IMG/VR virus record: IMGVR_UViG_3300025118_002981
Location: 1 to 20,799 of that record
Reading direction: 5' to 3' (one strand)
Origin: a virus
DNA length: 20,799 bases
Below, piece by piece: positions 2 to 18,823 of the stretch. The position numbers and the translations under genes were made by a program. Positions within the stretch are counted from its first letter, which is position 1. Each line of letters begins with the position of its first letter. The notes beneath the pieces were generated by a model. It was not told where the DNA came from, made no database searches, and saw only the letters and a program-made list of their open reading frames with translations.

Positions 2-1066
2 GATCCAAACGTGGAGTATGCTTCATTGTTGTGTTCTGGTTTGTCTTTAGAAGAGGCATGTTCAGCGGATATGCTTGATGATTTCAAAAGACTCCAGCGC
101 CGTTTTGTGGCGTATCTGAAGTCATTTCGAATCGGTAGGATCAATTTGCACGAACATTGCTTTTTTGATTTAGTTCCGAATGACTTTTTGCTGCAGTTTT
201 GTGAAGCAAAGAATCAGATAACAAAGCACGTTTTTGAAAACTTTGAAAAACCAGTAAACTATGATCATTTGGATAAACTAGCAAAATTGTTGTACAAAAT
301 CAAATATCAAGATTTGGAAGTTAACAATAAGGACTGTAAAACGTTGTTTTATAATTCGTATGCTCGTGAAAAAATCAAAAAATTGCTCAATGGAAAACGA
401 TACATCGATTACAATCTTTTCGGCACTGTGACAGGCAGATTAACCACTGCTCCTGGTTCTTTTCCTATTCTCACGATGATGAAGGAAATGCGGAAGTTGA
501 TTAAGCCAAAGAATGACTGGTTTATTTCGCTAGATTACAATGGCGCCGAAGTGAGGACATTTCTGGCATTGTGTGGCGATTCGCAACCACAAGAGGATAT
601 TCATGATTGGAATATGAAAAATGTATTTGGTAATCGCACTCTAACAAGGGAAGAAGTGAAGACGACATTCTTTGCGTGGCTATATAATCCAGATTCGAAT
701 GACATTAAAAGCAGAGAATACGATAAAAATAAAGCACTTGACAGATGGTATGCCGATGGTAGCGTTACAACGCCCTTTGGCCGTAAATTGATGGTTGGAG
801 AGAAGAAAGCGCTAAACTATCTCGTGCAGAGCACAACGGCAGATTTGGTATTGGAAAAAGCTGTTCAAATTGATGAATTATTAATCGGTAAGAAATCATT
901 CATTTCGCATATTGTCCATGACGAAATTGTATTGGATGTTACCGACGATGAGCGTGATTATATTGTTGATATTAAAAAGGTATTTTCAGAAAATCGATTG
1001 GGCAATTATTTAGTTAATTTGAAGGCTGGTAAGAACTATTTAGAGTTAGAAGATCTTAAACTATGA
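2..1066 (+). CDS. Family A DNA polymerase, C-terminal polymerase domain (5' partial)
   Basis: DNA polymerase I-type (family A) catalytic domain. The frame is open to the left edge, so the N-terminus, including any 3'-5' exonuclease domain, lies outside; the GTG at 11 is probably not the start. Numbering from that GTG, I see the TGR element (141-143), motif A DYNGAEVR with catalytic Asp175, motif B Arg213-x3-Lys217-x3-Phe221-x3-Tyr225, an NYLVQSTTAD segment near 279-288 matching the family's N-x2-QG-x2-AD block, and motif C HDE (303-305). All key catalytic residues are therefore present. The Gly that usually follows the motif B Tyr is Asn. Phe at the position equivalent to E. coli Pol I Phe762 is the form that in the family discriminates against dideoxynucleotides. 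The gene ends in an ATGA overlap with the next one. It probably acts in phage genome replication, alongside the DnaE-like enzyme at 15410. The family call is secure; the division of labour is unknown. Confidence 0.93.
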   Translation, partial: DPNVEYASLLCSGLSLEEACSADMLDDFKRLQRRFVAYLKSFRIGRINLHEHCFFDLVPNDFLLQFCEAKNQITKHVFENFEKPVNYDHLDKLAKLLYKIKYQDLEVNNKDCKTLFYNSYAREKIKKLLNGKRYIDYNLFGTVTGRLTTAPGSFPILTMMKEMRKLIKPKNDWFISLDYNGAEVRTFLALCGDSQPQEDIHDWNMKNVFGNRTLTREEVKTTFFAWLYNPDSNDIKSREYDKNKALDRWYADGSVTTPFGRKLMVGEKKALNYLVQSTTADLVLEKAVQIDELLIGKKSFISHIVHDEIVLDVTDDERDYIVDIKKVFSENRLGNYLVNLKAGKNYLELEDLKL

Positions 1067-1987: not shown

Positions 1988-2761
1988 ATGGGAATCAATA
2001 TGGAACTAATGAAAAAGAAACTCGCTGCATTGCGAGGGGAGAATACCAGCGATAACACATCTGTCTGGTTTCGCCCAGATGAAGGAGACACTGATATTCG
2101 TATCGTGCCTACTGCAGATGGCGATCCGTTGAAAGAGGTGTCTTTCCACTATAACGTTGGAGATCATCGCGGAGGTATTATGTGTCCGAAACGTAATTTT
2201 GGCGACAATTGCCCAATTTGCGAATTTGCGTCTTCATTATGGCGTGAAGGTACACAAAACAATGACGAGGAGAGTAAAAAGTTGGCTAAGTCGCTTTTTG
2301 TTCGTGCTCGTTTTTTCTCACCTGTCGTCGTTCGCGGCAGAGAGAGTGAAGGAATCAAGGTATATGGTTATGGGAAGCAAGCTTATGAATTGCTTTTGGG
2401 ATACATTCTTGATCCAGAATATGGTGATGTCACAGATACCTCTGAGGGTACTGATATCACTCTTACTTACACTAAGCCTACTAAGCCCGGTGCTTACCCT
2501 CAGACAAATCTAAAAATGCGTCGTAATACATCGGCTCTGTTGGAAGATGAGCAAGCGATCCCCGCCCTCCTTGATCGTATGCCTGATTTTGACTCTCTTT
2601 TCGAGCGTCTTTCTTCCACACAGATCGACGCGATTCTCGATGAACAATTAGCTGGCGACAAAACTGCCGAAGAGCGTTCAACTGAGACTGCCAAGTATGG
2701 TCCCGCTGACGGAAAAAGCGAAGTTGACCGAGCGTTTAATGAATTAATGGCAGGAAAATAG
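1988..2761 (+). CDS. gp32-like single-stranded DNA-binding protein
   Basis: A 257-residue protein of the T4 gp32 type, which coats single-stranded DNA during replication and recombination. The Zn site is recognisable: His54, then Cys66-x8-Cys75-x2-Cys78, closely matching gp32 His64/Cys77/Cys87/Cys90. The core SLFVRARFFSPVVV strand and following segments fit the OB fold, and the N-terminus is basic (MKKKLAALRG), as in the gp32 cooperativity domain. The C-terminal third is rich in Asp and Glu but the last residues (NELMAGK) are less acidic than the T4 tail. The ATG is set by AAAAAAGGAG six bases upstream. It has its own consensus promoter and a hairpin after the stop, and sits upstream of the GHKL ATPase and UvsX/RecA genes, its natural partners. 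It is shorter than T4 gp32 (301 aa). Confidence 0.88.
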   Translation: MGINMELMKKKLAALRGENTSDNTSVWFRPDEGDTDIRIVPTADGDPLKEVSFHYNVGDHRGGIMCPKRNFGDNCPICEFASSLWREGTQNNDEESKKLAKSLFVRARFFSPVVVRGRESEGIKVYGYGKQAYELLLGYILDPEYGDVTDTSEGTDITLTYTKPTKPGAYPQTNLKMRRNTSALLEDEQAIPALLDRMPDFDSLFERLSSTQIDAILDEQLAGDKTAEERSTETAKYGPADGKSEVDRAFNELMAGK

Positions 2762-2816: not shown

Positions 2817-2878
2817 TAAATGTTTTTCATTTTCAATCATAGCGATTGGAATATAATATCAATATAAAGGAGAATATA

Positions 2879-4450
2879 ATGAAAAAACAAAAAACAATAG
2901 AATATAACAGACGAGATATATCATCCGATCCGAATCATCTCTACAGCCATGTCGTTGGTGCGCTTGGAGGTACAATGAAAGAATCGTTTATGGAATTAAT
3001 AGATAATTCTGTGGATGCTGACGCGTCAGATATAAGACTTATTATTGATTCACCTAATAAGAATCAAAAGAGTAAGCTTGCAAGATTTATCATTGTTGAT
3101 GATGGATACGGTATGGATGGCAAACAGTTGGATAAGTCATTTACATTTGCAGCAGCTAACTACCATTCTAATGGTGATATTGGTAAGTTTGGTGCTGGTG
3201 GTACGGCTGCTTTTTTTAAGCTGGCTCGAAAGAAAACAGTTCTTACGAAAACAAAAATAGGGGAGTTGCTTGTTCAATGCCATGAAGTGCAACCAGAAGA
3301 TCCACTAAATGTGTATCGATTGGATCCAACTCCCGACCATTGGAAAATGTTTTCAGAATATTGTGATAATAGCGGCACTGTAGTCATTCTTGAAGATATT
3401 CTTGATTTAGAGCGAACACGCCCACACGATATTAGAAACGACATGCTTAAAGCTATTGGAGAAACATATCACAATAGATTGTCTTCTAAGATGAAGATAT
3501 CCGTTGAGACTAGTTCTAATAATGTTGAAGAAATACATTCCAACACACCAGTTGAACCCTGTGATCCATTGCATTGGGGCAGTCCAGCGGTTCTTGAGAA
3601 AAGAAAAGAAACACTTTCACGCACAGATGAACACGGCAACCAACATACTATCATTGTTAGAATGGTGTATTTGGATTTGGAGAAATTAAAAGGAAGGAGT
3701 TCAGGCGCCGGCAAAAAGCAAGGTATATATTTTTCACGAGAAAATAGGATTATTTCACATTCTGCTTCTTGCGCTTTGTGGCCAAATCGCCATTCGATCC
3801 TTAATCCTCTTCGTGTAGAGATTGAATACCCGGCTGCTCTGGATTCTGTTTTCGGTACTTCGGCATTTAAGAATCGTGTTAAACTTCCACAAACTTTAGT
3901 TGATCAACTTGGTTGTATTAAAAACTTCAGAGTAGAAATGGATAAGAAAATTAGAGATAAATCGAAAATGACTCCAGAGTCTACACAGAAGATAAATGAG
4001 AATACGGAGGATTTTTTTAAAAAAATACTTCGCGAATCCCCGTCTGAACTACCAAAAGCACGTGGCTCTGGTAGTAAAAATAACGGAGGTGGCGGTACAC
4101 CTCCGATAAAAAATAAAGGTAGAAATGGAAAACCCGGATCTGGCGGTAAAAAAAGCCGATTACTGCCTGAATATGAGATAGTCCCATTCGGACCGGTAGC
4201 TAGAAATATCCCTTTTTCTTATGATATAAATGAAGGATCAATGAAGGTGTCGATAAATGAAACGAGCGATTTTGTCTCGAAATATTATATTAATGCATCA
4301 AAAGAAGAGCAAACACTCATAAGACTTTTCGTCATAACGCACGTGCTAGCACTTTATGAATCATATGACGATAGCCGTTATGAGAAGTTGGAGGGCTTTG
4401 CGTATAGAACTATAGAGCTATTGGGAAGATTCGGCAACTTATTTACGTAG
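2879..4450 (+). CDS. GHKL-type ATPase (Hsp90/MutL/MORC-like)
   Basis: A 523-residue protein with a clear Bergerat ATP-binding fold: N-box Glu39-x2-AspAsn (42-43) with the following Asp46/Asp48, the DDGYGMD box (74-80), and the G2-type lid GKFGAGG (102-108). The segment QGIYFSRENRII (291-302) matches the conserved strand of the S5-like transducer domain in MORC/MutL-type proteins. A Gly/Lys-rich flexible linker (394-427) joins a C-terminal domain of about 95 residues that I do not recognise. ATG at 2879 is chosen because AAGGAG lies a few bases upstream; a TTG at 2846 in frame lacks a site. The gene lies between the ssDNA-binding protein and the recombinase, suggesting a DNA-linked role such as strand clamping, topology change or repair. 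MORC-like, MutL-like and topoisomerase-like functions cannot be separated from sequence alone. I see no recognisable topoisomerase or endonuclease active site. Confidence 0.82.
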   Translation: MKKQKTIEYNRRDISSDPNHLYSHVVGALGGTMKESFMELIDNSVDADASDIRLIIDSPNKNQKSKLARFIIVDDGYGMDGKQLDKSFTFAAANYHSNGDIGKFGAGGTAAFFKLARKKTVLTKTKIGELLVQCHEVQPEDPLNVYRLDPTPDHWKMFSEYCDNSGTVVILEDILDLERTRPHDIRNDMLKAIGETYHNRLSSKMKISVETSSNNVEEIHSNTPVEPCDPLHWGSPAVLEKRKETLSRTDEHGNQHTIIVRMVYLDLEKLKGRSSGAGKKQGIYFSRENRIISHSASCALWPNRHSILNPLRVEIEYPAALDSVFGTSAFKNRVKLPQTLVDQLGCIKNFRVEMDKKIRDKSKMTPESTQKINENTEDFFKKILRESPSELPKARGSGSKNNGGGGTPPIKNKGRNGKPGSGGKKSRLLPEYEIVPFGPVARNIPFSYDINEGSMKVSINETSDFVSKYYINASKEEQTLIRLFVITHVLALYESYDDSRYEKLEGFAYRTIELLGRFGNLFT

Positions 4451-4519: not shown

Positions 4520-5641
4520 ATGGCTAGAAAAGCAGCAACAAAACCTGGCAGAGTATCAATGCATGATTTGATGAAAATCGTCAACAAGAAAGCAGGCAGA
4601 AATGTAGCTCATGATTTAACTGGAGAGAATCCAACAGAAGTAAAACAATGGATTTCCACAGGTTCGCGCTGGTTAGATTCTATTACTTGCAAAGGCAAGC
4701 TTGCTGGAATTCCTGTTGGTAAGATTACAGAAATTGCTGGACTTAATAGTTCTGGTAAATCTTACATGGCAGCACAGATAGCAGCAAACGCTCAGAAACA
4801 GGATATGCTCGTTGTATATTTTGACTCTGAGTCTGCTATCGATCCAGTTTTTTTGGAGCAGACAGGGTGCAACCTGGAGCGACTAATGTACATCCAAGCA
4901 TCCTCTGTCGAGTTCGTTTTAGAGACAATCGAAGAGTTGCTGGGTGCGACGGAAGAACGAATTTTGTTTGTCTGGGATTCTCTGGCATTAACTCCCGCGA
5001 TCTCTGATATTGAAGGGGATTTTAACCCTCAATCATCGATGGCAGTGAAAGCACGCATTTTGGCGAAGGGTATGTCAAAGTTGATCATTCCGATTGCCGA
5101 CAAGCAAGCAACCTTTTTGGTGTTGAATCAATTAAAGGCAAATATCACCAGTGGCCCAGCCGCGAGAGTCACAGCGATGACAACGCCATATATGACGCCT
5201 GGTGGCAAAGCAATGCATTATTCGTATTCGCTGCGTATTTGGCTAACAGGAAGGAAAGCAAAATCTGCGTTTGTTGAAGATGAAAATGGATTCAGAATTG
5301 GTTCAGAGGTTAAGGTAAAACTAGAGAAATCTCGCTTTGGAACACAAGGAAGAAACTGTTTTTTCAAGATATTGTGGGGAGTGGACAACGTAGGCATTCA
5401 AGATGATGAAAGTCTTTTTGAGGCAGTTAAAGGCACAAAATACTTATCCAGTGCTGGTTCGTGGTATACGATGGAAATGGCTGATGGTAACACTGTCAGA
5501 TTTCAACCAGGCAGTTGGGCAAAGAAGATGGAAGAAGAAGTATTTCGAAATAGAGTTTATGAGATTATGGATGAAGAGATCATCCGTAAATTTGATAAGC
5601 GAGAAGGAAAGGCTTCAGATTTTTATGAAGAAGATGAATAA
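4520..5641 (+). CDS. UvsX/RecA-family recombinase
   Basis: A 373-residue RecA-fold strand-exchange ATPase; it would form filaments on ssDNA, pair homologous DNA, and drive recombination-dependent replication and repair. Walker A is GLNSSGKS (74-81), the catalytic Glu lies in YFDSES (Glu104), and Walker B is ILFVWD (148-153). NQLKANIT followed by the Thr/Gly-rich segment to GGKAMHY (about 203-233) corresponds to the L2 DNA-binding loop region. The C-terminus is acidic (DFYEEDE), as in RecA-type proteins. The length is close to T4 UvsX (391 aa) and E. coli RecA (353 aa). A strong AAGGAGG precedes the ATG. The reading frame is intact although a homing endonuclease gene overlaps its 3' end. Confidence 0.93.
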   Translation: MARKAATKPGRVSMHDLMKIVNKKAGRNVAHDLTGENPTEVKQWISTGSRWLDSITCKGKLAGIPVGKITEIAGLNSSGKSYMAAQIAANAQKQDMLVVYFDSESAIDPVFLEQTGCNLERLMYIQASSVEFVLETIEELLGATEERILFVWDSLALTPAISDIEGDFNPQSSMAVKARILAKGMSKLIIPIADKQATFLVLNQLKANITSGPAARVTAMTTPYMTPGGKAMHYSYSLRIWLTGRKAKSAFVEDENGFRIGSEVKVKLEKSRFGTQGRNCFFKILWGVDNVGIQDDESLFEAVKGTKYLSSAGSWYTMEMADGNTVRFQPGSWAKKMEEEVFRNRVYEIMDEEIIRKFDKREGKASDFYEEDE

Positions 5642-6464
5642 GACTTGTAGCAAATGTGGCGAAGTGAAGCCGATTAGTGAGATGCGTAAAAACAGAAACC
5701 AATGTAAGGCGTGTGTGGCTGAATACTGGAAGCAATACCGTCAAGATCCAGTCATCAAAGAACGCCAAAAGCAATACGACAAGCAATACGGCAAGCAATG
5801 GCGTCAAGACAACAAAGAACACAGAAAGCAATACCGTCAAGACAACAAAGAACACATCAAGCAATACAACAAGCAATACTATCAAGACAACAAAGAACAC
5901 ATAAAGCAACGCGATAAGCAATACCGTCAAGATCCAGTCAACAAAGAACGCAGAAAGCAATACGACAAGCAATACCGTCAAGACAATAAAGAACGCATAT
6001 ATCAACGCCATAAGCAATACTATCAAGACAACAAAGAACGCATAAAGCAATACTATCAAGATCCAGTCAACAAAGAACACAAAAAGCAATACAACAAGCA
6101 ATACAATCAAGACAATAAAGAACGCATATATCAACGCCATAAGCAATACCTTAAGCAATACCGTCAAAATCTCCCAGCCGCAACGTATTCAATAACAAAC
6201 ACAATAAACGGAAAGGTGTATATCGGGCAATCTACCCAGTATTCACGAAGATGGACAACACACAAAAGAAACTTACGAAAGAACAAACACGAAAACAAAC
6301 ATTTCCAGCAAGACTGGAACGAATATGGAGAAGACGCATTTGTGTTTGAAGTGATAGAAGAATTGCCACCAGACACATCTTCTGAACTACTGCTGGAAAA
6401 AGAGCGAGAACAAATAATAGAACATCTTAAAAGAGATGTTATACTTTATAATACATTAAATTGA
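5634..6464 (+). CDS. Free-standing GIY-YIG endonuclease with zinc finger and KQY repeat linker
   Basis: A 276-residue protein in three parts. The head is a four-Cys zinc finger, CSKC (Cys5, Cys8) and CKAC (Cys24, Cys27). Residues about 33-178 are a low-complexity linker of about nine units of the KQYRQDNKE type, very rich in Lys, Gln and Tyr. The tail from about 183 is a GIY-YIG nuclease: TYSI in place of GIY, VYIG (Tyr196), ArgArgTrp (205-207), and Glu255 in LLEKERE as likely metal ligand. Such proteins cleave DNA to spread their own gene. The start is ATG 5634, or 5625 in the same frame; both overlap the recombinase gene. Frame and stop are intact, and no intron is evident in the recombinase, so this looks like a free-standing homing gene inserted beside a conserved target. 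Confidence 0.85.
   Translation: MNKTCSKCGEVKPISEMRKNRNQCKACVAEYWKQYRQDPVIKERQKQYDKQYGKQWRQDNKEHRKQYRQDNKEHIKQYNKQYYQDNKEHIKQRDKQYRQDPVNKERRKQYDKQYRQDNKERIYQRHKQYYQDNKERIKQYYQDPVNKEHKKQYNKQYNQDNKERIYQRHKQYLKQYRQNLPAATYSITNTINGKVYIGQSTQYSRRWTTHKRNLRKNKHENKHFQQDWNEYGEDAFVFEVIEELPPDTSSELLLEKEREQIIEHLKRDVILYNTLN
5730..6170 (+). repeat. Degenerate tandem repeats within the endonuclease gene
   Basis: About nine degenerate copies of a 33-45-base unit built around AAGCAATAC and CAAGACAACAAAGAAC encode the KQY..QD..KE linker. Units vary in length by whole codons, so the reading frame is kept. Near-identical longer blocks (for example those around 5985-6020 and 6110-6145) suggest recent unit duplication. 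Confidence 0.85.
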
Positions 6465-7281: not shown

Positions 7282-7484
7282 AATATAAGATGGGCGATTT
7301 GGTGAAAATAAAAGCATTCGACGAATATGATAATGAAGAATATCATATTGGATTGATAGTTGATCAACCAACGGCAATCCCGGCGACTCCTCCAAGTGGC
7401 TCTGTATTTTATGAGATATTGTTTGTTGGAGAGAATGAGTCAGATTATTATTTTGAAGAAGAAATTATTGAGGTGATTGAATGA
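7278..7484 (+). CDS. Small acidic protein, possible SH3-like barrel
   Basis: 68 residues starting at GTG 7278, which overlaps the deaminase stop; ATG 7290 in frame is an alternative. The pattern MGDLVKIKAF...HIGLIVDQP...YEILFVGENESDYYFEEEIIEVIE alternates short strands and turns, as in small SH3/KOW-like phage proteins, with a very acidic C-terminal half. No function recognised. It ends in an ATGA overlap with the 5' nuclease, so it belongs to the same operon. Confidence 0.65.
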   Translation: MKYKMGDLVKIKAFDEYDNEEYHIGLIVDQPTAIPATPPSGSVFYEILFVGENESDYYFEEEIIEVIE

Positions 7485-8437
7485 AAAGAGTATTGATTAT
7501 TGATGCATTAAATATGTATCTGAGAAGTTATATTGTGGTTCCTAGTTTATCCACCAACGGACAACCTATTGGTGGGTTGGTTGGAACTATTAAGTCTTTA
7601 CAAAAACTAGCAAGAGAGACAAAGCCAGATCATATTGTGTTTGCGTGGGATGGTCCAAACGGATCAATGAAACGCAAGATTATGGACAAGAACTATAAAG
7701 AAGGCCGCAAGCCTATTCGCTTGAATCGTGCTTTCCATAACTTGTCGGAAGACGAAGAGACGCAGAACAAAGTATGGCAGCAGAGTAGATTGATGGAATA
7801 TTTGAATATTATGCCGGTTATTCAGACAATACTGCCTGAGATTGAAGCAGATGATGTTATATCTTATATTACTCAGATGCCATATTACAAAGGCTGGCAG
7901 AAGATTATTGTTTCAAATGATAAAGATTTTATGCAACTATGCGATGAAGAGACTGTATTGATGCGGCCGGTTAAAAAGGAGTTGTTAAATAAGTCTCGCA
8001 TTACTGAACAGACAGGCGTTCACCCAACGAACATGGCATTAGCGAGAGCAATAATCGGAGACGCTTCAGACAATTTGCCCGGTATTAAAGGTGCTGGTTT
8101 TGCGACCGTCGCAAAAAGGCTTGATTTTTTATCGGAGGAAAAAACGTATACAATTGATGAAGTTATAGAGCACTGTGAGAATTCAAACAGCACACTTAAG
8201 TTTTTTTCCAATGTTATAGAGGGAAGGGAGCTTGTTGAACATAATTATAAGATGATGCAGTTGTATTCTCCTCAAATGTCGATTCAGGCAAAAACAATAA
8301 CCAAAGAAGCGATAGAGAATTTTGAATTTACGTTTAATAAAACAGAACTTATCAAGATGATGAATATTGATGGATTTAGTGATTTAAACTTAAGCGATCT
8401 TACTGCACACATGAATAGAATAGCTAGAGAAAACTAA
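7481..8437 (+). CDS. 5'-3' exonuclease/flap nuclease (T4 RNase H/FEN-like)
   Basis: 318 residues with the FEN-family acidic residues in order: Asp8 (IIDALN), Asp57 (FAWDG), the cluster around Glu120-Glu122-Asp124-Asp125 (EIEADD), Asp147 and Asp149 (SNDKD), and Asp194 and Asp197 (GDASDN). These are followed by the helix-hairpin-helix PGIKGAG (200-206), which grips duplex DNA. The family removes RNA primers and 5' flaps from the lagging strand. Its length is close to T4 RNase H (305 aa). It is a separate gene from the family A polymerase, as in many phages, whereas bacterial Pol I fuses the two. It is the last gene before the next promoter at 8445. Confidence 0.9.
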   Translation: MKRVLIIDALNMYLRSYIVVPSLSTNGQPIGGLVGTIKSLQKLARETKPDHIVFAWDGPNGSMKRKIMDKNYKEGRKPIRLNRAFHNLSEDEETQNKVWQQSRLMEYLNIMPVIQTILPEIEADDVISYITQMPYYKGWQKIIVSNDKDFMQLCDEETVLMRPVKKELLNKSRITEQTGVHPTNMALARAIIGDASDNLPGIKGAGFATVAKRLDFLSEEKTYTIDEVIEHCENSNSTLKFFSNVIEGRELVEHNYKMMQLYSPQMSIQAKTITKEAIENFEFTFNKTELIKMMNIDGFSDLNLSDLTAHMNRIAREN

Positions 8438-8492: not shown

Positions 8493-9866
8493 ATGAGAGA
8501 AGAGGGAACAAATTTTGCAAAATATGGCAAATCCTTTCAGGAAGGATTAGTTCAGCTTATTTTTGAGGATCGTCCTTTCGCTGATCAGATAACAGAAGTG
8601 CTTGATGTTAATTTTTTAGAACTTGAGTATCTTAGAGTGTTCGTATCGAAGGTGATAGATTATAGAACAAAATATACCGTTCATCCTTCATTTGAGGCAT
8701 TAATTAGTATTTTGCGTACTGAGCTAGATGAAGAAGATGAAGTGATTCAGAAACAAGTTAGAGAGTATTTTGCAAGAATTAAGACAAAAGATATAACTGA
8801 CGCCGCATATATTAAAGAGACATCGTTGGATTTCTGTCGAAAGCAGAATCTTAAAGAAGCTATGATGAAGTCTGTTGGGTTGTTACAGACGTGTTCTTTT
8901 GATGAGATTTCAAAAGTTATCAATGAGTCGTTAAAGTTAGGATCGGAAACAAACTTTGGTCATGATTATATAGTGGACTTTGAAGAGAGATATAAACCTA
9001 GACATCGTATGCCGACTACAACTGGGTGGAAGGAGATAGATCAGATTTGCGGTGGCGGTTTGGGGCAAAGTGAATTGGGTGTTGTGATAGCGCCAACGGG
9101 CGCAGGTAAGAGTATGGCTTTGGTTCATTTAGGCACGCAAGCTTTGAAGGAAAAGAAAACAGTTGTTCATTATACTTTAGAATTACGGGATATAGTTGTT
9201 GCAAATCGATATGATAGTTGTATTACAGGATATCCCCTTTCAAATTTGAATGAATTTAAAGAAGATATTTTTGAACAAATCAAGCTCGTTGATGGTAAAC
9301 TAATAGTGAAAGAATACCCAACTAAATCTGCTTCATCTAATACTATTCGCAATCATTTATCTCGATTGGCAAAAAGAGGGATAAATCCAAGTGTGATAAT
9401 TGTTGATTATGCCGATTTGCTCAAGCCAACTGTTATTAGGAAAGAGAAAAGAAATGAATTGGAATCTATTTATGAAGAACTGCGAGCAATTGCTTCCGAA
9501 TTTAAATGTTCAATTTGGACAGCCTCTCAAACAAATCGATCTGGATTAAACGCTGAAGTGATTACAATGGAGCAAATATCAGAAGCATTTAATAAATGCT
9601 TTGTAGCAGATTTCATTTTTTCTGTGTCTCGTACAGTGGAAGATAAGCAGAAGAATCAGGGAAAGATATTTATCGCAAAGAATAGAAATGGTCCAGATGG
9701 AATAGTATACAATATTCATATGGATACATCTAATGTAGATATTAAAATTGCACCAACAGCGGCAACGCCACAAATTCAGGTAAATCCAGTGGCATTAAGT
9801 CCTAAAATGCAACAAGATGTTTTACAAAAACGATATGAAAAATTTAGAAATAAAGGGAGAAACTAG
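8493..9866 (+). CDS. Replicative DNA helicase, DnaB/T4 gp41-like
   Basis: 457 residues. The C-terminal RecA-like motor has Walker A APTGAGKS (200-207), Glu230 in TLELRD as the likely catalytic base, Walker B VIIVDYADLL (301-310), and the ASQTNRSG segment near 350 typical of the DnaB sensor region. The N-terminal 150 residues are helical and poorly conserved, matching the primase-interacting domain of the family. The length is close to T4 gp41 (475 aa). The enzyme would unwind the fork as a hexameric ring on the lagging strand. No primase is seen in the window. GAGGG precedes the ATG at normal distance. The ribonucleotide reductase follows after 6 bases. Confidence 0.92.
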   Translation: MREEGTNFAKYGKSFQEGLVQLIFEDRPFADQITEVLDVNFLELEYLRVFVSKVIDYRTKYTVHPSFEALISILRTELDEEDEVIQKQVREYFARIKTKDITDAAYIKETSLDFCRKQNLKEAMMKSVGLLQTCSFDEISKVINESLKLGSETNFGHDYIVDFEERYKPRHRMPTTTGWKEIDQICGGGLGQSELGVVIAPTGAGKSMALVHLGTQALKEKKTVVHYTLELRDIVVANRYDSCITGYPLSNLNEFKEDIFEQIKLVDGKLIVKEYPTKSASSNTIRNHLSRLAKRGINPSVIIVDYADLLKPTVIRKEKRNELESIYEELRAIASEFKCSIWTASQTNRSGLNAEVITMEQISEAFNKCFVADFIFSVSRTVEDKQKNQGKIFIAKNRNGPDGIVYNIHMDTSNVDIKIAPTAATPQIQVNPVALSPKMQQDVLQKRYEKFRNKGRN

Positions 9867-9872
9867 TATATT

Positions 9873-11840
9873 ATGAGAACTTTAAAGAACATCCGTCGAT
9901 TTCGTTTATCGGATGTATTCATTGAACCGTATAAAACACAAGAGGTACCTTGGGGTCCATTGGGTTATGTGACGTTTAAACGTACATACGCTCGTCGCCT
10001 GGAAGAGTTTGAACCTGGAGCTTCTGGTACTGAGGAGTGGTGGCAAACTTGCCGACGAGTGATAGAAGGAACGTTTAACATGCAAAAAGAGCACGTTGCT
10101 CTGTTGGGATTAGAATGGAATGATAATAAAGCCCAACGCACAGCAAAAGATGCTTATGGGCGTTTGTTTAATCTCAAATGGACGCCACCAGGCAGAGGGC
10201 TATGGATGATGGGCACGAAGTTCGTGGAAGAGCGTACTGCTGCTGGTTTGTTCAATTGCGCGATGCGATCAACTGCTGATATTGCTTCTAAAGGTGGTTA
10301 TCTATTTTCTTGGATGATGGATGCTCTCATGGTGGGTATCGGAGTTGGGTTTGATACTCTGGGTGCTGGGACGATTACTATCAAAGAACCACATTACACT
10401 AATGATGTTCTTGTTATTGATGATTCTCGTGAGGGATGGGTTAACTCCGTTCATATTCTGTTAGATGGTTTCTTTTTTGGCAACAAAGTTCCAAAGTTTG
10501 ACTATAGCGCGATTCGTCCCGAAGGTGAGTTAATTAAAGGATTTGGAGGCACTTCTTCTGGCTATGGGCCACTTAAGGAACTCCATGAGAATCTCAAAGA
10601 GTTATATATGGACAAAGCAGGAGAGCTTATAACATCTGTGGATATTGTTGATACAGAGAATCTTATTGGCCGTTGCGTGGTGTCTGGTAATGTGAGGCGT
10701 TCTGCGGCATTAGCATTGGGAAAACATGACGATATGCATTATCTTGAAATGAAGAATGATCAAGAAAAGCTTTATCATCATCGGTGGGGTTCAAACAATT
10801 CATTTGTTGCTGAAGTAGGTATGGATTATACTTGGCATGCTGAACAGTGTCAGAAGAACGGTGAACCGGGAGCTATCTGGTTGGAAAACGCAAGAGCATA
10901 TGGAAGATTTAAAGATGGTGTTAATTATCGTGATAGAGAGGTAGTGGGAATGAACCCTTGTTCAGAACAAAGCCTTCATAACGCTGAGATGTGTTGCTTA
11001 ACGGAGACATTTCCAGCAAAACACGACGATTACGAAGATTACCTTAAGACACTTAAAGTTGCTTATCTGTATGGTAAAACTGTGACTCTTTCCAATACTC
11101 ATTGGTTAGAAACCAACGCAATGATGCTCAAAAACCGTCGTATTGGGTTATCACAATCCGGCATCGTCCAGGCGTTTAATAAGTTTGGAAGGAGAGCGAT
11201 GTTGGAGTGGTGTGATAAAGCGTATGATTATGTTAAAGAGTTAGACGAAGAATATTCTAATTGGTTATGTATTCCTAGATCCATTAAGATGACTTCTATC
11301 AAGCCTTCTGGTACTGTTTCATTGTTGAACGGTTCAACTCCAGGCATTCATTTTCCAGAGAGTGAATATTACATTCGTCGTATTCGATTCTCTAGTGATT
11401 CGACGTTACTGGTAGCGCTAGCGGAAGCTGGATATGTTATTGAGGATGATGAATATTCTCCAAATACAAAAGTGGTTGAGTTTCCAGTTCACGAACCGTT
11501 CTTTGAGAAGGGTAAAAAAGATGTTAGTATGTGGGAGCAGTTGGAGATAGCTGCACAGTATCAACATTTTTGGGCAGATAACGCTGTGTCGGTGACTGTT
11601 ACGTTTAGCGATGCCGAGGCTCCACAAATTAAAAATGCATTAGAGCTATATGAAAAAAGACTTAAAGCAGTTTCATTTTTGAGATATAAAGAAACTGGCT
11701 ACACTCAAGCTCCATATGAAGCGATAACTAAAGAACAATTCGAAGCGAGAGTGAAAGATGTAACTCCGATCCAACGAATAGATGATGACGAAGGTGGATC
11801 TGGTTCTAAATTCTGCACTAACGATTCTTGCACTATTTAA
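9873..11840 (+). CDS. nrdJ: Class II (adenosylcobalamin-dependent) ribonucleotide reductase
   Basis: 655 residues of the monomeric class II type, which makes deoxyribonucleotides using coenzyme B12 as radical source. Visible sites: Cys129 in LFNCAMR (redox Cys near the N-terminus), NPCSE (361-365) with the thiyl-radical Cys363 and Glu365, Cys374-Cys375 supplying the second redox Cys, and a C-terminal pair (Cys648, Cys653) that would be re-reduced by thioredoxin. Compared with the Lactobacillus leichmannii enzyme (739 aa) it is shorter by about 80 residues, which may reflect changes in the allosteric or cobalamin-binding insertions. It needs no small subunit, and none is seen. A GGGAG site lies 13 bases before the ATG, rather far. 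Together with the deaminase it would feed dNTP supply during replication, and it implies the host makes or imports B12. Confidence 0.9.
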   Translation: MRTLKNIRRFRLSDVFIEPYKTQEVPWGPLGYVTFKRTYARRLEEFEPGASGTEEWWQTCRRVIEGTFNMQKEHVALLGLEWNDNKAQRTAKDAYGRLFNLKWTPPGRGLWMMGTKFVEERTAAGLFNCAMRSTADIASKGGYLFSWMMDALMVGIGVGFDTLGAGTITIKEPHYTNDVLVIDDSREGWVNSVHILLDGFFFGNKVPKFDYSAIRPEGELIKGFGGTSSGYGPLKELHENLKELYMDKAGELITSVDIVDTENLIGRCVVSGNVRRSAALALGKHDDMHYLEMKNDQEKLYHHRWGSNNSFVAEVGMDYTWHAEQCQKNGEPGAIWLENARAYGRFKDGVNYRDREVVGMNPCSEQSLHNAEMCCLTETFPAKHDDYEDYLKTLKVAYLYGKTVTLSNTHWLETNAMMLKNRRIGLSQSGIVQAFNKFGRRAMLEWCDKAYDYVKELDEEYSNWLCIPRSIKMTSIKPSGTVSLLNGSTPGIHFPESEYYIRRIRFSSDSTLLVALAEAGYVIEDDEYSPNTKVVEFPVHEPFFEKGKKDVSMWEQLEIAAQYQHFWADNAVSVTVTFSDAEAPQIKNALELYEKRLKAVSFLRYKETGYTQAPYEAITKEQFEARVKDVTPIQRIDDDEGGSGSKFCTNDSCTI

Positions 11841-11861: not shown

Positions 11862-12137
11862 ATGTTTAGTCCGGTTAACCGTTATATTTTAGTGGATATA
11901 CCCCAAAAACAAGAACCAGAAACATCAAGTGGCATAGTTCTTCCAGAAAGTTTTAAACCAACAGAAGAGAAGCACATGGTAGTTTCGGTGATTAGTTGGG
12001 CAACAGACGTGAAGTTTGAAAATGTATTAAATATTAATTCTAAACTAGTTATTGATAGATCTATGATAGAAGAAGTAGATATAAAAGGCAAGAAATATAG
12101 TTTGATATTGGAAAATTATGTTTTAGGCATTATATAG
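11862..12137 (+). CDS. GroES-like co-chaperonin (gp31-type)
   Basis: 91 residues with the GroES/Cpn10 pattern: VNRYILVDIPQ at the start (P-x-DRVLV in the family), SSGIVLPES (22-30) at the mobile loop/strand, a middle strand MVVSVISW matching G-x-VVAVG, and a C-terminal strand YSLILENYVLGII. T4 gp31 replaces GroES as lid of the host GroEL chamber so that the capsid protein folds; the same is inferred here. The usual Gly before the central strand is replaced (KHMVVSVI). AGAGGTGAT precedes the ATG. It follows the reductase by 21 bases and is probably co-transcribed. Confidence 0.8.
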   Translation: MFSPVNRYILVDIPQKQEPETSSGIVLPESFKPTEEKHMVVSVISWATDVKFENVLNINSKLVIDRSMIEEVDIKGKKYSLILENYVLGII

Positions 12138-13073: not shown

Positions 13074-13610
13074 ATGTTGTTCGTATTATTGCTGTGCTCG
13101 TGTTTAAACTCAAATACCCAATACCTCGAAAAATATCCCAATACATTTTTTGAGATTGCGACTTTTGGTAAGCCACAGAAAGTAGGCACGTGGGCCAGCC
13201 CTCCCGTAGTTAAAGTATGCGAGGGTGTAAAAATTTCAGAAACAAGAGTAATGATGGCTTTGGCTTTTTGGGAGAATAGTGGATATGATTTTGAAGATGT
13301 GATTTTCGATTATAATTCTATGGAGTGTGTTGTTGATAATTATGGAACAGGAATAGTAATAACCACAGCGGATCAATCCGTGGAAGAGAAGTATTTAGCA
13401 TTTACAAAAACATCAGTAAATAAAAGAACGGGATACATCACCAGGGCAAAGATTTTAATTAAAGAGACAGACATAACTCGTGAAAGAATATTGGAACATG
13501 AAATTGGACATGCTTTAGGTTGGAAACATTATCTTCAAAAATTACACGTGATGCATCCTGAATGGAAATATGGCGGATATGACAATAAAGGAATGAGGAA
13601 AACGGATTGA
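13074..13610 (+). CDS. Matrixin-like (metzincin) zinc metalloprotease with lipoprotein signal
   Basis: 178 residues. The zinc site HEIGHALGWKH (142-152) carries His142, Glu143, His146 and His152, with the Met-turn VMHP (159-162) eight residues on: the full metzincin signature, closest to matrixins. The N-terminus MLFVLLLCSC is a hydrophobic run ending in a lipobox-like LLCSC, so the mature protein probably starts at Cys8 or Cys10 and would be lipid-anchored. The hydrophobic run lacks the usual N-terminal Lys, and no Shine-Dalgarno precedes ATG 13074; the leader at 13052 may supply both by frameshift or reinitiation. A predicted prodomain Cys switch is not evident. Next to an endolysin it might help open the envelope or act on surface proteins; the substrate is unknown. 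The stop overlaps the TTG of the next gene. Confidence 0.75.
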   Translation: MLFVLLLCSCLNSNTQYLEKYPNTFFEIATFGKPQKVGTWASPPVVKVCEGVKISETRVMMALAFWENSGYDFEDVIFDYNSMECVVDNYGTGIVITTADQSVEEKYLAFTKTSVNKRTGYITRAKILIKETDITRERILEHEIGHALGWKHYLQKLHVMHPEWKYGGYDNKGMRKTD

Positions 13611-14506
13611 CTCACGTTTATGAGTATGATACAGTGGTCTTGGGGAGCGATTTGAGAGCGCTTTTGTTCGCGTTCAACAATCGTCTTCCTGTCGTGTTTG
13701 CAGAACAAAGACGCCCTTTTCGTTTTGATTATTTCGATGATGAAGATTTGAGTTGTCTGAATATCGAAAACACACAGAAAATACTTAAAACACACCAAGG
13801 AGATAAAATAATAGGAATTGCTAAAGATATCTTATGGGAGAGATTGTTGTTTTTTCTATCTCTAGAAGGACGCATGCCACTCTCAGATATTTGTAGCAGT
13901 ATTCGATATGATGGCGATAGTTTGGTATGTTCGAATGAATATGCTAAGATCGCAGAAATCAAGTTTGATACTTGTTATTATTTCGGAGATGATAAATGTT
14001 TGGGTATAGATAAGAAAATAGTTGATAAAGGTGAATATATATGTTATGATTGGGTAGCATTCAATCAAGGAGGGAAGCATGATATTGATTATATTAAAAC
14101 TGGTGATGACTTTGTAAGTCAAATATGGTTTTATTCTTCAGATAGGATTGATGGAAACACACCAGTAAAAGATGCGTGCGCTGTCTCGATAATCAAGGAA
14201 GAAGATATATTTAATTTTGATTTTTCAGAAACGTCAGCAAGATTTAAAACAACCGAAGAAATGTATAAACGAGGAATGAAAGGAAAATTTAATGGACACT
14301 GCCCAAAATACGGACATCCAAAATATTATAGATTTAAAACATCACATATCTCCCGAAGAAAGGAGAAGAATAAAACTACGATTAGCACGAGGGAGAGCGC
14401 GATCAAAGTTACAAAAACTAAAGAGCAAACTCTACTCAGAGATTTACCGGCGTCTTGTTTGGGTTACGATAGATATGTGAGGCATTTTGTCGCAAGTAAG
14501 ACATAA
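13607..14506 (+). CDS. Uncharacterised protein with Rossmann-like N-terminus
   Basis: 299 residues starting at TTG 13607, which overlaps the stop of the metalloprotease (TTGA), with GAGG about 9 bases upstream. The start YDTVVLGSDLRALLFAFNNRLPVVFAE has the strand-turn-helix-strand pattern of an FAD/NAD-binding fold, but the GxGxxG loop is degenerate (GSDLRA), so cofactor binding is doubtful. The middle has no motif I recognise. Near 225-275 there is FDFSETSARFKTTEEMYKRGMKGKFNGHCPKYGHPKYYRFK, a dense charged block that looks conserved. The last 50 or so residues are basic and low in complexity, and overlap another open frame (14292-14480). No function assigned. The coupling to the metalloprotease may be only positional. 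Confidence 0.6.
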   Translation: MTHVYEYDTVVLGSDLRALLFAFNNRLPVVFAEQRRPFRFDYFDDEDLSCLNIENTQKILKTHQGDKIIGIAKDILWERLLFFLSLEGRMPLSDICSSIRYDGDSLVCSNEYAKIAEIKFDTCYYFGDDKCLGIDKKIVDKGEYICYDWVAFNQGGKHDIDYIKTGDDFVSQIWFYSSDRIDGNTPVKDACAVSIIKEEDIFNFDFSETSARFKTTEEMYKRGMKGKFNGHCPKYGHPKYYRFKTSHISRRKEKNKTTISTRESAIKVTKTKEQTLLRDLPASCLGYDRYVRHFVASKT

Positions 14507-14525
14507 ACAACAAAACGTACAACAC

Positions 14526-15413
14526 ATGGCTGGTATTATTCCGATAGCAAGCCTTGAAACTGATTTTGAAACAGAAATACCATCTGTGATGCATCCGTAT
14601 GCTAATCAATATTCTTTTATTCAGAAGGCGGCACTAGAGTGCGCCACTGTTGGATGTAAGACAATATGGATAGTTGCGAATGATGATGTTGCTCCGATTA
14701 TTCGAAAAAACGTTGGAGATTATGTTTTTGATCCAGTTTGGGCTTTTCGAAATTTAAGCAAATTTCATAATCAACTGAGAAGAGAAGTGCCTATATATTA
14801 TGTTCCTATTCATCCGAAAGACAGAGAAAGGCGAGATTCTAATGGCTGGGCGGCATTGCATGGAGTTGCGATGTCGCGTTGGGTGACAAGTAAAATATCG
14901 AAATGGTTAGTAGCCGACAAGTATTATATCACTTTTCCGATGTCTGCTTATGACTTTAACGCTCTTAGGGAGCACAGGAGAAGTATTATCGATAAAGAGA
15001 AGAATTTCTATTTGACTTATAATGGAAAGTCAGTGAAAGATAATTTACCACTACCTTTCACTATGTTTTACAAAGATTATCAGAAATGTAAAGTTGATGT
15101 AAATCGTAAAACGACAAGAACATTTTCCAACTTTGGCACTTTTTCAGAAATAGATAAAGCGGAAAAACTACCACTGGATGAGCGATGGTCAGCTAGAAAG
15201 TTTGACTTTAGTGAGGTATATCAAGAGGTTGGCGACAAGAATGCGATAAAAGTGGAAGCTGAATGGTTCTATAATACTTCAATATGGGATGAGTATTGTG
15301 CCTATCTTGGCGAGAGAGGCAGGACAATGAGACGCCCAACAAAGTTCTTGACACGAACACATAAACATGATAAGATAGCATATAATCAATCAACAATAGA
15401 GGGCGAAGAATGA
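14526..15413 (+). CDS. Nucleotidyltransferase-like protein (GT-A/NTP-transferase fold, tentative)
   Basis: 295 residues from ATG 14526; the same frame extends to a TTG at 14487 preceded by GAGG, which would add 13 basic residues. ATG 14526 is preferred because the fold's first strand (GIIPIAS) then lies at the N-terminus. The opening GIIPIASLETDFETEIPSVMHPYANQYSFIQKAALECATVGCKTIWIVANDD follows the NTP-transferase pattern (strand, substrate loop, Pro-x-x-x-His-Pro, helix, Gly-Cys, Ile-x-Ile-Val strand). The family's GxGTR loop is not conserved, so activity is uncertain. The rest has no recognised motif. It overlaps the preceding gene only if the TTG start is used and joins the DnaE-like polymerase by ATGA, so translation of the two is probably coupled. 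A role in sugar or nucleotide modification is inference. Confidence 0.6.
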   Translation: MAGIIPIASLETDFETEIPSVMHPYANQYSFIQKAALECATVGCKTIWIVANDDVAPIIRKNVGDYVFDPVWAFRNLSKFHNQLRREVPIYYVPIHPKDRERRDSNGWAALHGVAMSRWVTSKISKWLVADKYYITFPMSAYDFNALREHRRSIIDKEKNFYLTYNGKSVKDNLPLPFTMFYKDYQKCKVDVNRKTTRTFSNFGTFSEIDKAEKLPLDERWSARKFDFSEVYQEVGDKNAIKVEAEWFYNTSIWDEYCAYLGERGRTMRRPTKFLTRTHKHDKIAYNQSTIEGEE

Positions 15414-18400
15414 TTAAATTTGTGGGACTACACGCGCATAGTACGCATTCAAGGAACGATGGATTTGGATATCCACAGGAGCATATTGATTTTGCGATTG
15501 AAAATGGGATGGATGCGTTGGCGTTGACTGATCACGGTACAATGGCGGGTACATCGTATCAGATATTGCATGCAAGGAAGTTAAAAGAGAAAGGAATCGA
15601 TTTTAAGGCGATTTATGGAGTAGAGGCATACTTTCACGCTTCTCTTACTGAGTGGCGAGAGGTTTATGAGAAGATAAAAGAAGACAAGAAACTCGCCCGT
15701 TCGTTAAACAGCAAAAAGCAAACATCAGCAGCGGTGGAATCAGACGGTTCGGTGAATGCGCAGACTATCGGCGGCTTGCCCCGGTATAGGCATCTTGTGT
15801 TGCTGGCGCAGAATCAGACAGGATTGAACAACTTGTACAAGTTGGTATCTGCCTCACATAACGAGGAGAACTACTATCGACGCCCAAGAATGGATTTTGA
15901 TATGCTTCGAGAGCACAGCGAGGGTGTTATTTGCACTAGTGCTTGTATGTCAGGACCTTTGGCTGGTGTGTGGTGGGAACATAAAGACGATGGCGAAGCA
16001 GCAGTGCAAACGGCAATGAAGAAGATGATCGCAGAGTTTGTTGATATCTTTGGTGATCGTTTTTACGGAGAGGTTCAGTGGAATTCAATTCCAGAACAGC
16101 ACAAGATAAATCAGAATGTATTGAAAGCATGTCGAGATATGGGTGTGCCGGTTGTTTCTACAGCAGACAGTCATTATCCTCGACAAGACGCATGGAAAGA
16201 CAGAGAGATGTACAAGCGTCTGGGATGGTTATCGCAAGGTATTCCAAGTTGGATTGATGATATTAGTTTGCCGAAGTCTGTTGAGGAGATTGGATATGAG
16301 TTATATCCTAAGAATGGCGAACAAATGTGGGAGGCTTATAAGAAGTATTCTGAAAAGTGTAACGAGACGTATGATGATGACGAGATATTGAAAACCATCA
16401 CAAAGACTCATTGGATCGCCCACGAACAAATTGAAGACTTTGAGCCAGATGCTACCATTCGTTTGCCTAATTTCGTTGTGCCAGAAGGTGAAACAGCGGA
16501 ATCAACATTACGAAGGATGGCACTTCAAGGATTGGAAGATAAAGAGATTACATCAGATGAATACATCAAGCGCATTGAGTATGAACTTGACGTGATAGCG
16601 TCACAGGGATTTTCGAAATATTTCCTGACAATGAAAGCTATAGCAGACAAAGCAAATGCGACAATGGCAACAGGAGCAGCAAGAGGAAGCGCTTCAGGCA
16701 GCTTGCTAGCATATGCCCTTGATATTACTCAGGTTAATCCTATTCGTTGGGAGTTACCGTTCGAGCGCTTTATGACAAAAGGAATGACTTCGTATCCAGA
16801 TATTGATTTTGATGTGGCTGAGCCTGCACTGTTGAAACAGAAACTCGCAGATGAATGGGGAGAGTTTTCGGTAGTCCCGATCTCTAATTGGAACACACTT
16901 CAACTTCGTTCATTGATTAAGGATATATCAAAATTCTACGAGATTCCATTCACAGAGGTTAACGCTGTTACTGGTACAATGCTTCAAGAAGCAACACCAC
17001 TGGCAAAGAAGAAGCACGGCATTAATGCGGGTGTGTATGTTCCGACGTTTGAAGAGGTGATGGAGTTCAGTTCCACGTTGCAAGATTTTTTGAGGAAGTA
17101 TCCGCACATCAAAACACATGTAGAGGCGTGCTACGGCAACGTCAGGAGCCAATCTGTGCATGCTGGCGGTTGCATTGTCGCAGACAACATCAACGAACAC
17201 ATGCCTCTTATTCGTTCGAAGGGTATGTGGATCACCCCATGGAGTGAAGGACAGAACGTGAGACATCTGGAGCCTCTGGGTTTCATTAAGTTCGATATCT
17301 TAGGGCTATCGACTCTTACGATGATCCAGGATTCCATCAGACATATTCTTAAACGACACTACAATATCGCTGAACCAACGTTCGATGACATTAAGAAGTA
17401 TTATGCTCAGAATCTCCATCCAGATAAAATTGGTTTCGATGATAAGGAAGTGTGGGAAAATGTATTTCATAACGTTTCATCTGCACCAGGCATCTTTCAA
17501 TTCACAAACTCTGGGATGAGTGCGTTCTGTGAGAGAGTAATGCCGGATAGTTTGGATGAACTTTCAGCCGTAACCAGCATTTTCCGCCCAGGGCCTTTGT
17601 CTTTTGGCGTTCATGATTTGTTTGTGGGAGCGAAGAGAGGCACACTCGATATCGAATGGCATCATCCTATCTATCAAGAGATAACAGAAAAGACATATGG
17701 CAATATCATTTACCAGGAACAGATCGCAGAGATTTGCAGTCGTATTGGAAAGGATATTTCTCGGGCAGATGGCAACACTATTCGCAAACTTCTTACAAAG
17801 AAGGGAACAGGCAAGGAGCATCTTCTTGCAGCATACGAGGCGAAGTTTATTGAGGGCGCTAGCGATAAGGGTATTCCAAATCATGTTGCGAATAGAATTT
17901 GGACGGCAATGTCTGAGTTTGCAAAGTATGGGTTTAATCTTTGTCACGCAACTTCGTATTCTATCATTTCGTATCAATGCGCTTGGTTGTGGAACTACTA
18001 TCCTTCTGAGTGGATTGCAAGCTTCCTTCAGAAAGAACCAGAGACAAGAAAAGAGAAAGCAATCAATATCGCAAAAAAGCATGGATATGATATCGCTGCT
18101 CTGGATATCAACAATTCTGGAACAGTATGGGAGATTAGCGATAACGGTAAAACACTTATTCAACCTCTTACTTCGATTAAGGGATTGGGATTATCTGCGA
18201 TTGAACAGATACTCAATAATCGTCCGTTTGAAAACGCAGAGGATTTGCTTTTCAAAGAAGAGATAACATACAGCAAGCTTAACAAGAAATCGCTTGATGC
18301 TCTTTGTCGAGCAGGGGCATTGAATAATCTCATTGACGATAGATTTACGGGAATGAAGCATTTTTGGAGTGCTTGTGTTGTTGAGCGTCCGAAAAGCACA

Positions 18401-18823
18401 AAGAAGTTAGACGAGAACATCGAACTATATGCCCCAGAAGGTGAGTTTTCAGAAGAGGATATCATCCAGTTCAAGACTGAACTAACTGGTGTGTTTCCAA
18501 TGAATTTAGTAATGTCAGAATCAATGTTGAATCGACTTAGCGAGAAATATATTCCACCCATTTCAGAATTTGATAGTATGTTAGGAATTTGCTGGTTCAT
18601 TCCTCGCAAAGTGATTCCCAAGAGAACAAAAACAGGGAAAGATTATTGGATAGTAGAAGTGATAGATAGCAACAACGAGCGAACAACTATTCGCTGCTGG
18701 GGTATCAAACCAGAGAAAGATAAAATATCACTTAATAAGCCGTATATGAGTAGACTCAAGTATGATCCCAAATGGGGATTCAGCACATATGCGGTTGGAA
18801 AAATGTTTAAAAAGTTAACATAA
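15410..18823 (+). CDS. Family C DNA polymerase (DnaE-like, Pol III alpha) with intact PHP domain
   Basis: 1137 residues, close to E. coli DnaE (1160). The N-terminal PHP domain has all nine canonical metal-site residues in order: His8, His10, Asp17, His42, Glu72, His128, Cys179, Asp253 and His255; E. coli DnaE has lost several, while enzymes keeping the set can proofread. The palm carries GSASGSLLAY and PDIDFD with catalytic Asp464 and Asp466, and the third Asp629 in KFDILGL. Fingers show GIFQFTNSGM and SIFRPGPL, then IIYQEQIAEICSRIG. SIKGLG is the DNA-binding helix-hairpin-helix. The C-terminal OB fold (from about 1060, GICWFIPRKV...KTGKDYW) is present, but there is no tau-binding domain after it, and I do not see a clear clamp-binding peptide. 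It would be the main replicase or a partner of the family A polymerase. The start overlaps the upstream stop (ATGA). Confidence 0.93.
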   Translation: MIKFVGLHAHSTHSRNDGFGYPQEHIDFAIENGMDALALTDHGTMAGTSYQILHARKLKEKGIDFKAIYGVEAYFHASLTEWREVYEKIKEDKKLARSLNSKKQTSAAVESDGSVNAQTIGGLPRYRHLVLLAQNQTGLNNLYKLVSASHNEENYYRRPRMDFDMLREHSEGVICTSACMSGPLAGVWWEHKDDGEAAVQTAMKKMIAEFVDIFGDRFYGEVQWNSIPEQHKINQNVLKACRDMGVPVVSTADSHYPRQDAWKDREMYKRLGWLSQGIPSWIDDISLPKSVEEIGYELYPKNGEQMWEAYKKYSEKCNETYDDDEILKTITKTHWIAHEQIEDFEPDATIRLPNFVVPEGETAESTLRRMALQGLEDKEITSDEYIKRIEYELDVIASQGFSKYFLTMKAIADKANATMATGAARGSASGSLLAYALDITQVNPIRWELPFERFMTKGMTSYPDIDFDVAEPALLKQKLADEWGEFSVVPISNWNTLQLRSLIKDISKFYEIPFTEVNAVTGTMLQEATPLAKKKHGINAGVYVPTFEEVMEFSSTLQDFLRKYPHIKTHVEACYGNVRSQSVHAGGCIVADNINEHMPLIRSKGMWITPWSEGQNVRHLEPLGFIKFDILGLSTLTMIQDSIRHILKRHYNIAEPTFDDIKKYYAQNLHPDKIGFDDKEVWENVFHNVSSAPGIFQFTNSGMSAFCERVMPDSLDELSAVTSIFRPGPLSFGVHDLFVGAKRGTLDIEWHHPIYQEITEKTYGNIIYQEQIAEICSRIGKDISRADGNTIRKLLTKKGTGKEHLLAAYEAKFIEGASDKGIPNHVANRIWTAMSEFAKYGFNLCHATSYSIISYQCAWLWNYYPSEWIASFLQKEPETRKEKAINIAKKHGYDIAALDINNSGTVWEISDNGKTLIQPLTSIKGLGLSAIEQILNNRPFENAEDLLFKEEITYSKLNKKSLDALCRAGALNNLIDDRFTGMKHFWSACVVERPKSTKKLDENIELYAPEGEFSEEDIIQFKTELTGVFPMNLVMSESMLNRLSEKYIPPISEFDSMLGICWFIPRKVIPKRTKTGKDYWIVEVIDSNNERTTIRCWGIKPEKDKISLNKPYMSRLKYDPKWGFSTYAVGKMFKKLT

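Follow-up and report, generated by a model that had tools for sequence, protein, structure and literature searches.

The 20,799 bases analysed here (the window), which represent an entire linear IMG/VR record, encode a DnaE-type family C DNA polymerase together with a small family A polymerase that matches the divPolA1 enzymes described by Yutin et al. 2024 (PMC11348598). We consider it fairly probable, on the basis of sequence comparisons and predicted structures, that DnaE is the main, self-proofreading replicase of this phage, while divPolA1 would serve as an accessory enzyme for short synthesis. The window itself is best explained as part of a large marine phage (about 185-196 kb) that belongs to the divPolA1 group and carries a T4-like replication cassette. 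Since the record is linear, genes at either end may be cut. A large and well-sampled marine lineage is thereby added to the divPolA1 phages, and its main polymerase is specified as DnaE.

The genes of the window are arranged in a replication cassette, all assigned members of which are located on the plus strand. The polA fragment (2-1066) is followed by a 280-aa gene of no assigned function (1063-1905), a gp32-like single-stranded DNA-binding protein (SSB; 1988..2761; Pfam PF08804, 1e-13), a protein with an HATPase domain (2846-4450) and the UvsX/RecA recombinase (4520..5641; Pfam RecA, 8e-34; phrog_97). Downstream of uvsX, the order continues with a GIY-YIG gene (5643-6464), a small gene, a dCMP deaminase-like gene, a second small gene and a FEN-like 5'-3' exonuclease (7481..8437; Pfam PF02739, 8e-27), a candidate partner of divPolA1. 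The exonuclease gene precedes those encoding a DnaB/gp41-like replicative helicase (8493..9866; Pfam PF03796; phrog_19), a B12-dependent (class II) ribonucleotide reductase (RNR; 9873..11840; Pfam PF17975/PF21995), GroES (Cpn10; 11862..12137; Pfam PF00166, 2.6e-9), an amidase and a small metalloprotease. Two genes of no assigned function (13607-14506 and 14487-15413), dnaE, clpP and a few small genes complete the window. The SSB is homologous and colinear in the phages immuto and Mel-JY01, both of which also contain homologues of the 5'-3' exonuclease.

Several genes of this region merit a separate description. The 280-aa gene overlaps the end of polA, and its product starts with MISIIGLGNAASAIAE, resembling the start of a dinucleotide-binding protein; the gene adjoins polA also in two relatives, G014 and G032, as well as in the WOR-3 bin discussed below. 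The protein located between SSB and UvsX comprises 534 amino acids and contains an Hsp90/gyrase-type ATPase domain (HATPase_c_3); no topoisomerase partner was seen for it, and BLAST detected no match in two large relatives. The GIY-YIG endonuclease-like gene lies directly 3' of uvsX, encodes an extended N-terminal series of short repeats resembling QYRQDNKEH and possibly specifies a homing endonuclease; segA likewise adjoins uvsX in T4. The two genes directly upstream of dnaE have no Pfam match; their order is kept in the relatives, and the second of them overlaps dnaE by 4 nt, with the dnaE ATG placed over the preceding stop codon.

The assignment of the 1137-aa protein encoded at 15410..18823 (plus strand) to the DnaE family is supported by several lines of evidence. 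Pfam searches identified the Pol III alpha domain (2e-47), the PHP domain (3e-34), the fingers (4e-29) and HHH_6 (2e-12), and PHROG 405 matched nearly the whole length of the protein (1e-220). The AlphaFold2 model, with a mean pLDDT of 80, yielded M. tuberculosis DnaE1 (E 8e-53) and Taq Pol III alpha (4e-51) as best Foldseek matches. With respect to Pfam, the model and Foldseek, the domain order PHP, palm/thumb/fingers, HhH and C-terminal OB fits that of DnaE. Conservation was assessed in 81 family members, consisting of the window protein and 80 relatives from viral contigs with 57-79% identity. The catalytic aspartates D464 and D466 (PDIDFD) and D629 (KFDxLGL), encoded within 16799..17296 on the plus strand, are invariant in 81/81 sequences. 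Pfam, PHROG 405 and the predicted structure thus agree with the preliminary description, in which a full-length DnaE-like family C enzyme had been proposed and a structure prediction suggested as a check.

The preliminary description was likewise right that the protein ends after the OB fold: the chain encoded in the window stops in the OB region, as do those of all relatives, and neither the sequences of the 81 members nor the model revealed a C-terminal tau-binding domain. Because a bacterial DnaE1 variant truncated after OB is known, the missing domain does not exclude membership in the DnaE type. Moreover, a beta-clamp motif of the Q..[LMIVF]F type was found in none of the 81 family sequences. 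Of DnaE1 proteins, 99% carry a motif for binding the beta clamp close to the HhH/OB junction (PMC3919608), but it is also missing from some bacterial DnaE1 and is not required for family C membership.

The PHP domain of the phage enzyme retains the full set of metal-site residues. The residues H8, H10, D17, H42, E72, H128, C179, D253 and H255, encoded within 15431..16174 (plus strand), align with the nine metal residues of the exonuclease-active DnaE1 of M. tuberculosis, and all 81 family members keep them unchanged; the Asp17 loop (residues 11-20) was modelled at low confidence, with a pLDDT below 50. In M. tuberculosis, the PHP domain of DnaE1 is an exonuclease that binds three zinc ions on these nine residues, whereas five of the nine are changed in E. 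coli (PMC5636811). These data bear out the earlier observation that all nine residues are kept, unlike the situation in E. coli. An intact PHP site is by itself not rare: bacterial DnaE1 proteins usually possess one, except in the Bacteroidetes and the alpha-, beta- and gamma-proteobacteria (PMC3919608), and it was present in 10/17 sampled DnaE proteins of cultivated phages, with the N-terminal region of most others lying outside the retrieved stretch. No DnaQ-type exonuclease over the cut-off was detected in 10 large contigs of relatives, which yielded a single sub-threshold match. Given the lack of a recognisable gene for a DnaQ-type exonuclease, the phage DnaE probably proofreads its own products by a zinc-dependent PHP exonuclease, like DnaE1 of M. 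tuberculosis, and the built-in 3'-5' exonuclease activity suggested in the preliminary description appears likely.

The second polymerase gene (2..1066, plus strand) was assigned to family A by Pfam (PF00476, 2e-15). The preliminary description had correctly named it a family A enzyme but had not remarked that the start of the gene is lost at the contig boundary. The sister contigs L119 and L120, which are 99-100% identical over polA, extend further upstream and specify a complete protein of 395 amino acids with a TTG start codon. In these contigs, another gene precedes polA and ends four bases into it; the existence of a separate, split exonuclease gene at this position was rejected, as the region is occupied by other genes in the sister contigs. 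Family members measure about 390-418 amino acids, and the alignment revealed invariant residues in motif A (Asp and Glu; the aspartate is encoded at 533-535 of the window), motif B (Arg, Lys, Phe and Tyr) and motif C (His-Asp; HDE at 917-925). A 3'-5' exonuclease domain would not fit into a protein of 395 amino acids, whose thumb is also shortened. The structural model (mean pLDDT 75) matched Klenow-type polymerases.

The classification of this enzyme was based on profile and pairwise scores, size and gene order. The family profile scored 48 bits with the divPolA1 of immuto and 38 bits with a 409-aa ORF of Mel-JY01, compared with 18 bits for the regular PolA of immuto; the sequence link between the window protein and divPolA1 is remote (24% identity). 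Ordinary Pol I enzymes of the mycobacteriophage type reached comparable BLAST scores, but this alternative was rejected in view of the gene order, the size and the profile, which speak for divPolA1. Additionally, the window combines a family A palm that retains the catalytic residues, a truncated thumb and no exonuclease domain with the conserved downstream order polA-SSB-UvsX-5' exonuclease-DnaB-RNR and with a second polymerase (DnaE) and GroES, and the relatives measure 158-196 kb. By profile, size and gene order, the family A gene matches the divPolA1 of Yutin et al. 2024.

The distribution of the two polymerase genes was determined in 42 relative contigs searched alongside the window. The polA gene was present in the window and in 25/42 contigs; it was found in 25/25 contigs whose sequence upstream of dnaE measured at least 14.6 kb and was missing from all 17 contigs with at most 14.1 kb. 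Each absence is accordingly explained by a contig end, and a real loss of polA from some relatives was rejected. As a family A gene was found in 0/17 sampled DnaE phages from a varied cultivated set, the pairing is a trait of the lineage of the window and not of DnaE phages in general. Matches of DnaE in bacterial genome records were also considered as a link to a host, but they sit in metagenome bins and were rejected for this purpose. In the one bin inspected, assigned to a WOR-3 bacterium (CP070664.1; L188 and L195), dnaE and polA of the family are located far apart, phage genes are present and runs of 100 N occur; the record resembles scaffolds that were joined together and contaminated by phage DNA, for which reason no host was deduced.

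That both genes are kept together without exception wherever this could be assessed would suit an arrangement in which two equal replicases share the leading and lagging strands, a division of labour raised as a question in the preliminary description. The pair PolC and DnaE of Bacillus is the comparison for such a division. The two phage enzymes are nonetheless very unequal, one with 1137 amino acids and a PHP domain and the other with 395 amino acids and no exonuclease, and the small enzyme is retained regardless of the family of the large one (PMC11348598). We consequently regard this arrangement as highly improbable. The constancy of divPolA1 in phages whose main polymerase belongs to family A, B or C indicates an accessory role instead.

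The remaining components of the replisome were searched for in contigs of relatives. A family B polymerase was absent from 13 large related contigs (68-196 kb), which extends beyond the window the earlier statement that none is encoded there; an enzyme of this kind elsewhere in the genome was rejected on this ground. In ten large contigs, no T4-type or bacterial clamp was recognisable, and the only matches to clamp loaders were generic AAA ones. Matches to phrog_168 were rejected as evidence for a loader, since they span only part of the AAA core, non-loader proteins of T4 score alike and other tests were negative; the phrog_168 match of contig G014 falls in a CobS-like ATPase (phrog_1297/249). 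A primase and a gp46/47-like protein are present in G014. This contig of 195,690 bases is classified as linear in IMG/VR and carries a near-perfect repeat of approximately 100 bases at its ends, suggesting that it is complete or nearly complete. The idea that DnaE may work without the clamp loader of the host is plausible inasmuch as neither clamp, loader nor clamp motif was found, although a diverged clamp or that of the host might be used. That this lineage of ~190 kb relies on a self-proofreading DnaE devoid of sliding clamp, clamp loader and epsilon, with the exonuclease-less family A enzyme and the 5' nuclease forming the halves of a split Pol I, is in its entirety a doubtful proposition.

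A DnaE protein without a recognisable clamp motif or clamp is odd as the main replicase of a genome of ~190 kb, and this feature counts against the interpretation favoured here, as do the remote sequence link to divPolA1, the well-kept catalytic motifs of divPolA1 and the position of its gene among core replication genes. The roles could be reversed, because divPolA1 is the polymerase that is embedded in this gene set in all three kinds of phage: it would then act as fork replicase, leaving DnaE for repair, late replication or the replacement of the host Pol III alpha. The lack of a clamp motif and a tau-binding domain in DnaE is consistent with this assignment, and Yutin et al. read divPolA1 as replicative and the role of the regular polymerase as less obvious (PMC11348598). 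Against it, divPolA1 has a shortened thumb and no proofreading domain, DnaE is invariant at all catalytic sites and many cultivated phages rely on DnaE and encode no family A enzyme, as in the 17 sampled. We therefore consider the reversal unlikely.

With DnaE as the main replicase, the family C enzyme would copy the phage genome and correct its own errors through the PHP domain. The divPolA1 protein would perform short synthesis, for instance the filling of gaps left once the adjacent 5' nuclease has removed primers, so that both proteins together would resemble a split Pol I; alternatively, it may extend recombination intermediates together with UvsX, in neither case serving as half of the fork. 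We infer these activities and the division of roles from the observed gene content, site conservation, co-occurrence and missing domains. A restriction of divPolA1 to the extension of D-loops or the bypass of lesions with UvsX and SSB, excluding the filling of Okazaki gaps, is somewhat less remote than the reversal but still not expected. In the window as well as in immuto and Mel-JY01, a few genes separate divPolA1 from those of SSB and UvsX, and missing proofreading fits error-tolerant synthesis, but the 5' nuclease belongs to the same cassette and no lesion-bypass motif was identified.

A comparison with known systems placed the pairing of DnaE with a family A enzyme in a phage group published in 2024, to which the lineage of the window is a new addition, as all assessable divPolA1 features were found and the cassette is shared with immuto and Mel-JY01. 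The published divPolA1 phages have genomes of 155-190 kb, and their main polymerase, accompanied by chaperonin genes, belongs to family A, B or C (PMC11348598). They resemble the window in a small family A enzyme that lacks the exonuclease and precedes SSB, RecA, 5'-3' exonuclease, DnaB and RNR, and in the second, regular polymerase near chaperonin genes. The closest type of DnaE is that of M. tuberculosis (PDB 5lew, 7pu7), which has the PHP-Pol-HhH-OB order and the nine PHP metal residues in common with the phage protein; the two are about 25% identical, and the phage enzyme differs in ending at the OB fold and in the absence of a recognisable clamp motif. The DnaE proteins of cultivated phages (Bacillus Leo2, Streptomyces Karimac-like phages and Bixzunavirus) represent the same polymerase type but are <30% identical to that of the window. 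The cassette of immuto is colinear with the window, but its regular polymerase is a family A enzyme of 777 amino acids instead of DnaE. In the divPolA1 of immuto (MW353176, 1-1326; L155), the motif A Glu is replaced by His and the His/Glu of motif C are lost (YDA), with both Asp kept, whereas the marine family retains the canonical motif A Glu and the motif C HDE; members of divPolA1 thus differ in the erosion of the active site. The Microcystis phage Mel-JY01 (PP395634, 190 kb) shares the order SSB-RecA-5' exonuclease-helicase-RNR, with the divPolA1-like ORF upstream, but its main polymerase belongs to family B and is accompanied by T4-like clamp-loader genes, in contrast to DnaE and no such genes found in the lineage of the window. 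Immuto (family A), Mel-JY01 (family B) and this lineage (family C) constitute a natural experiment in which one cassette and one accessory polymerase are combined with three unrelated main replicases, so that direct tests become feasible both of what divPolA1 does and of PHP proofreading in the absence of epsilon or clamp.
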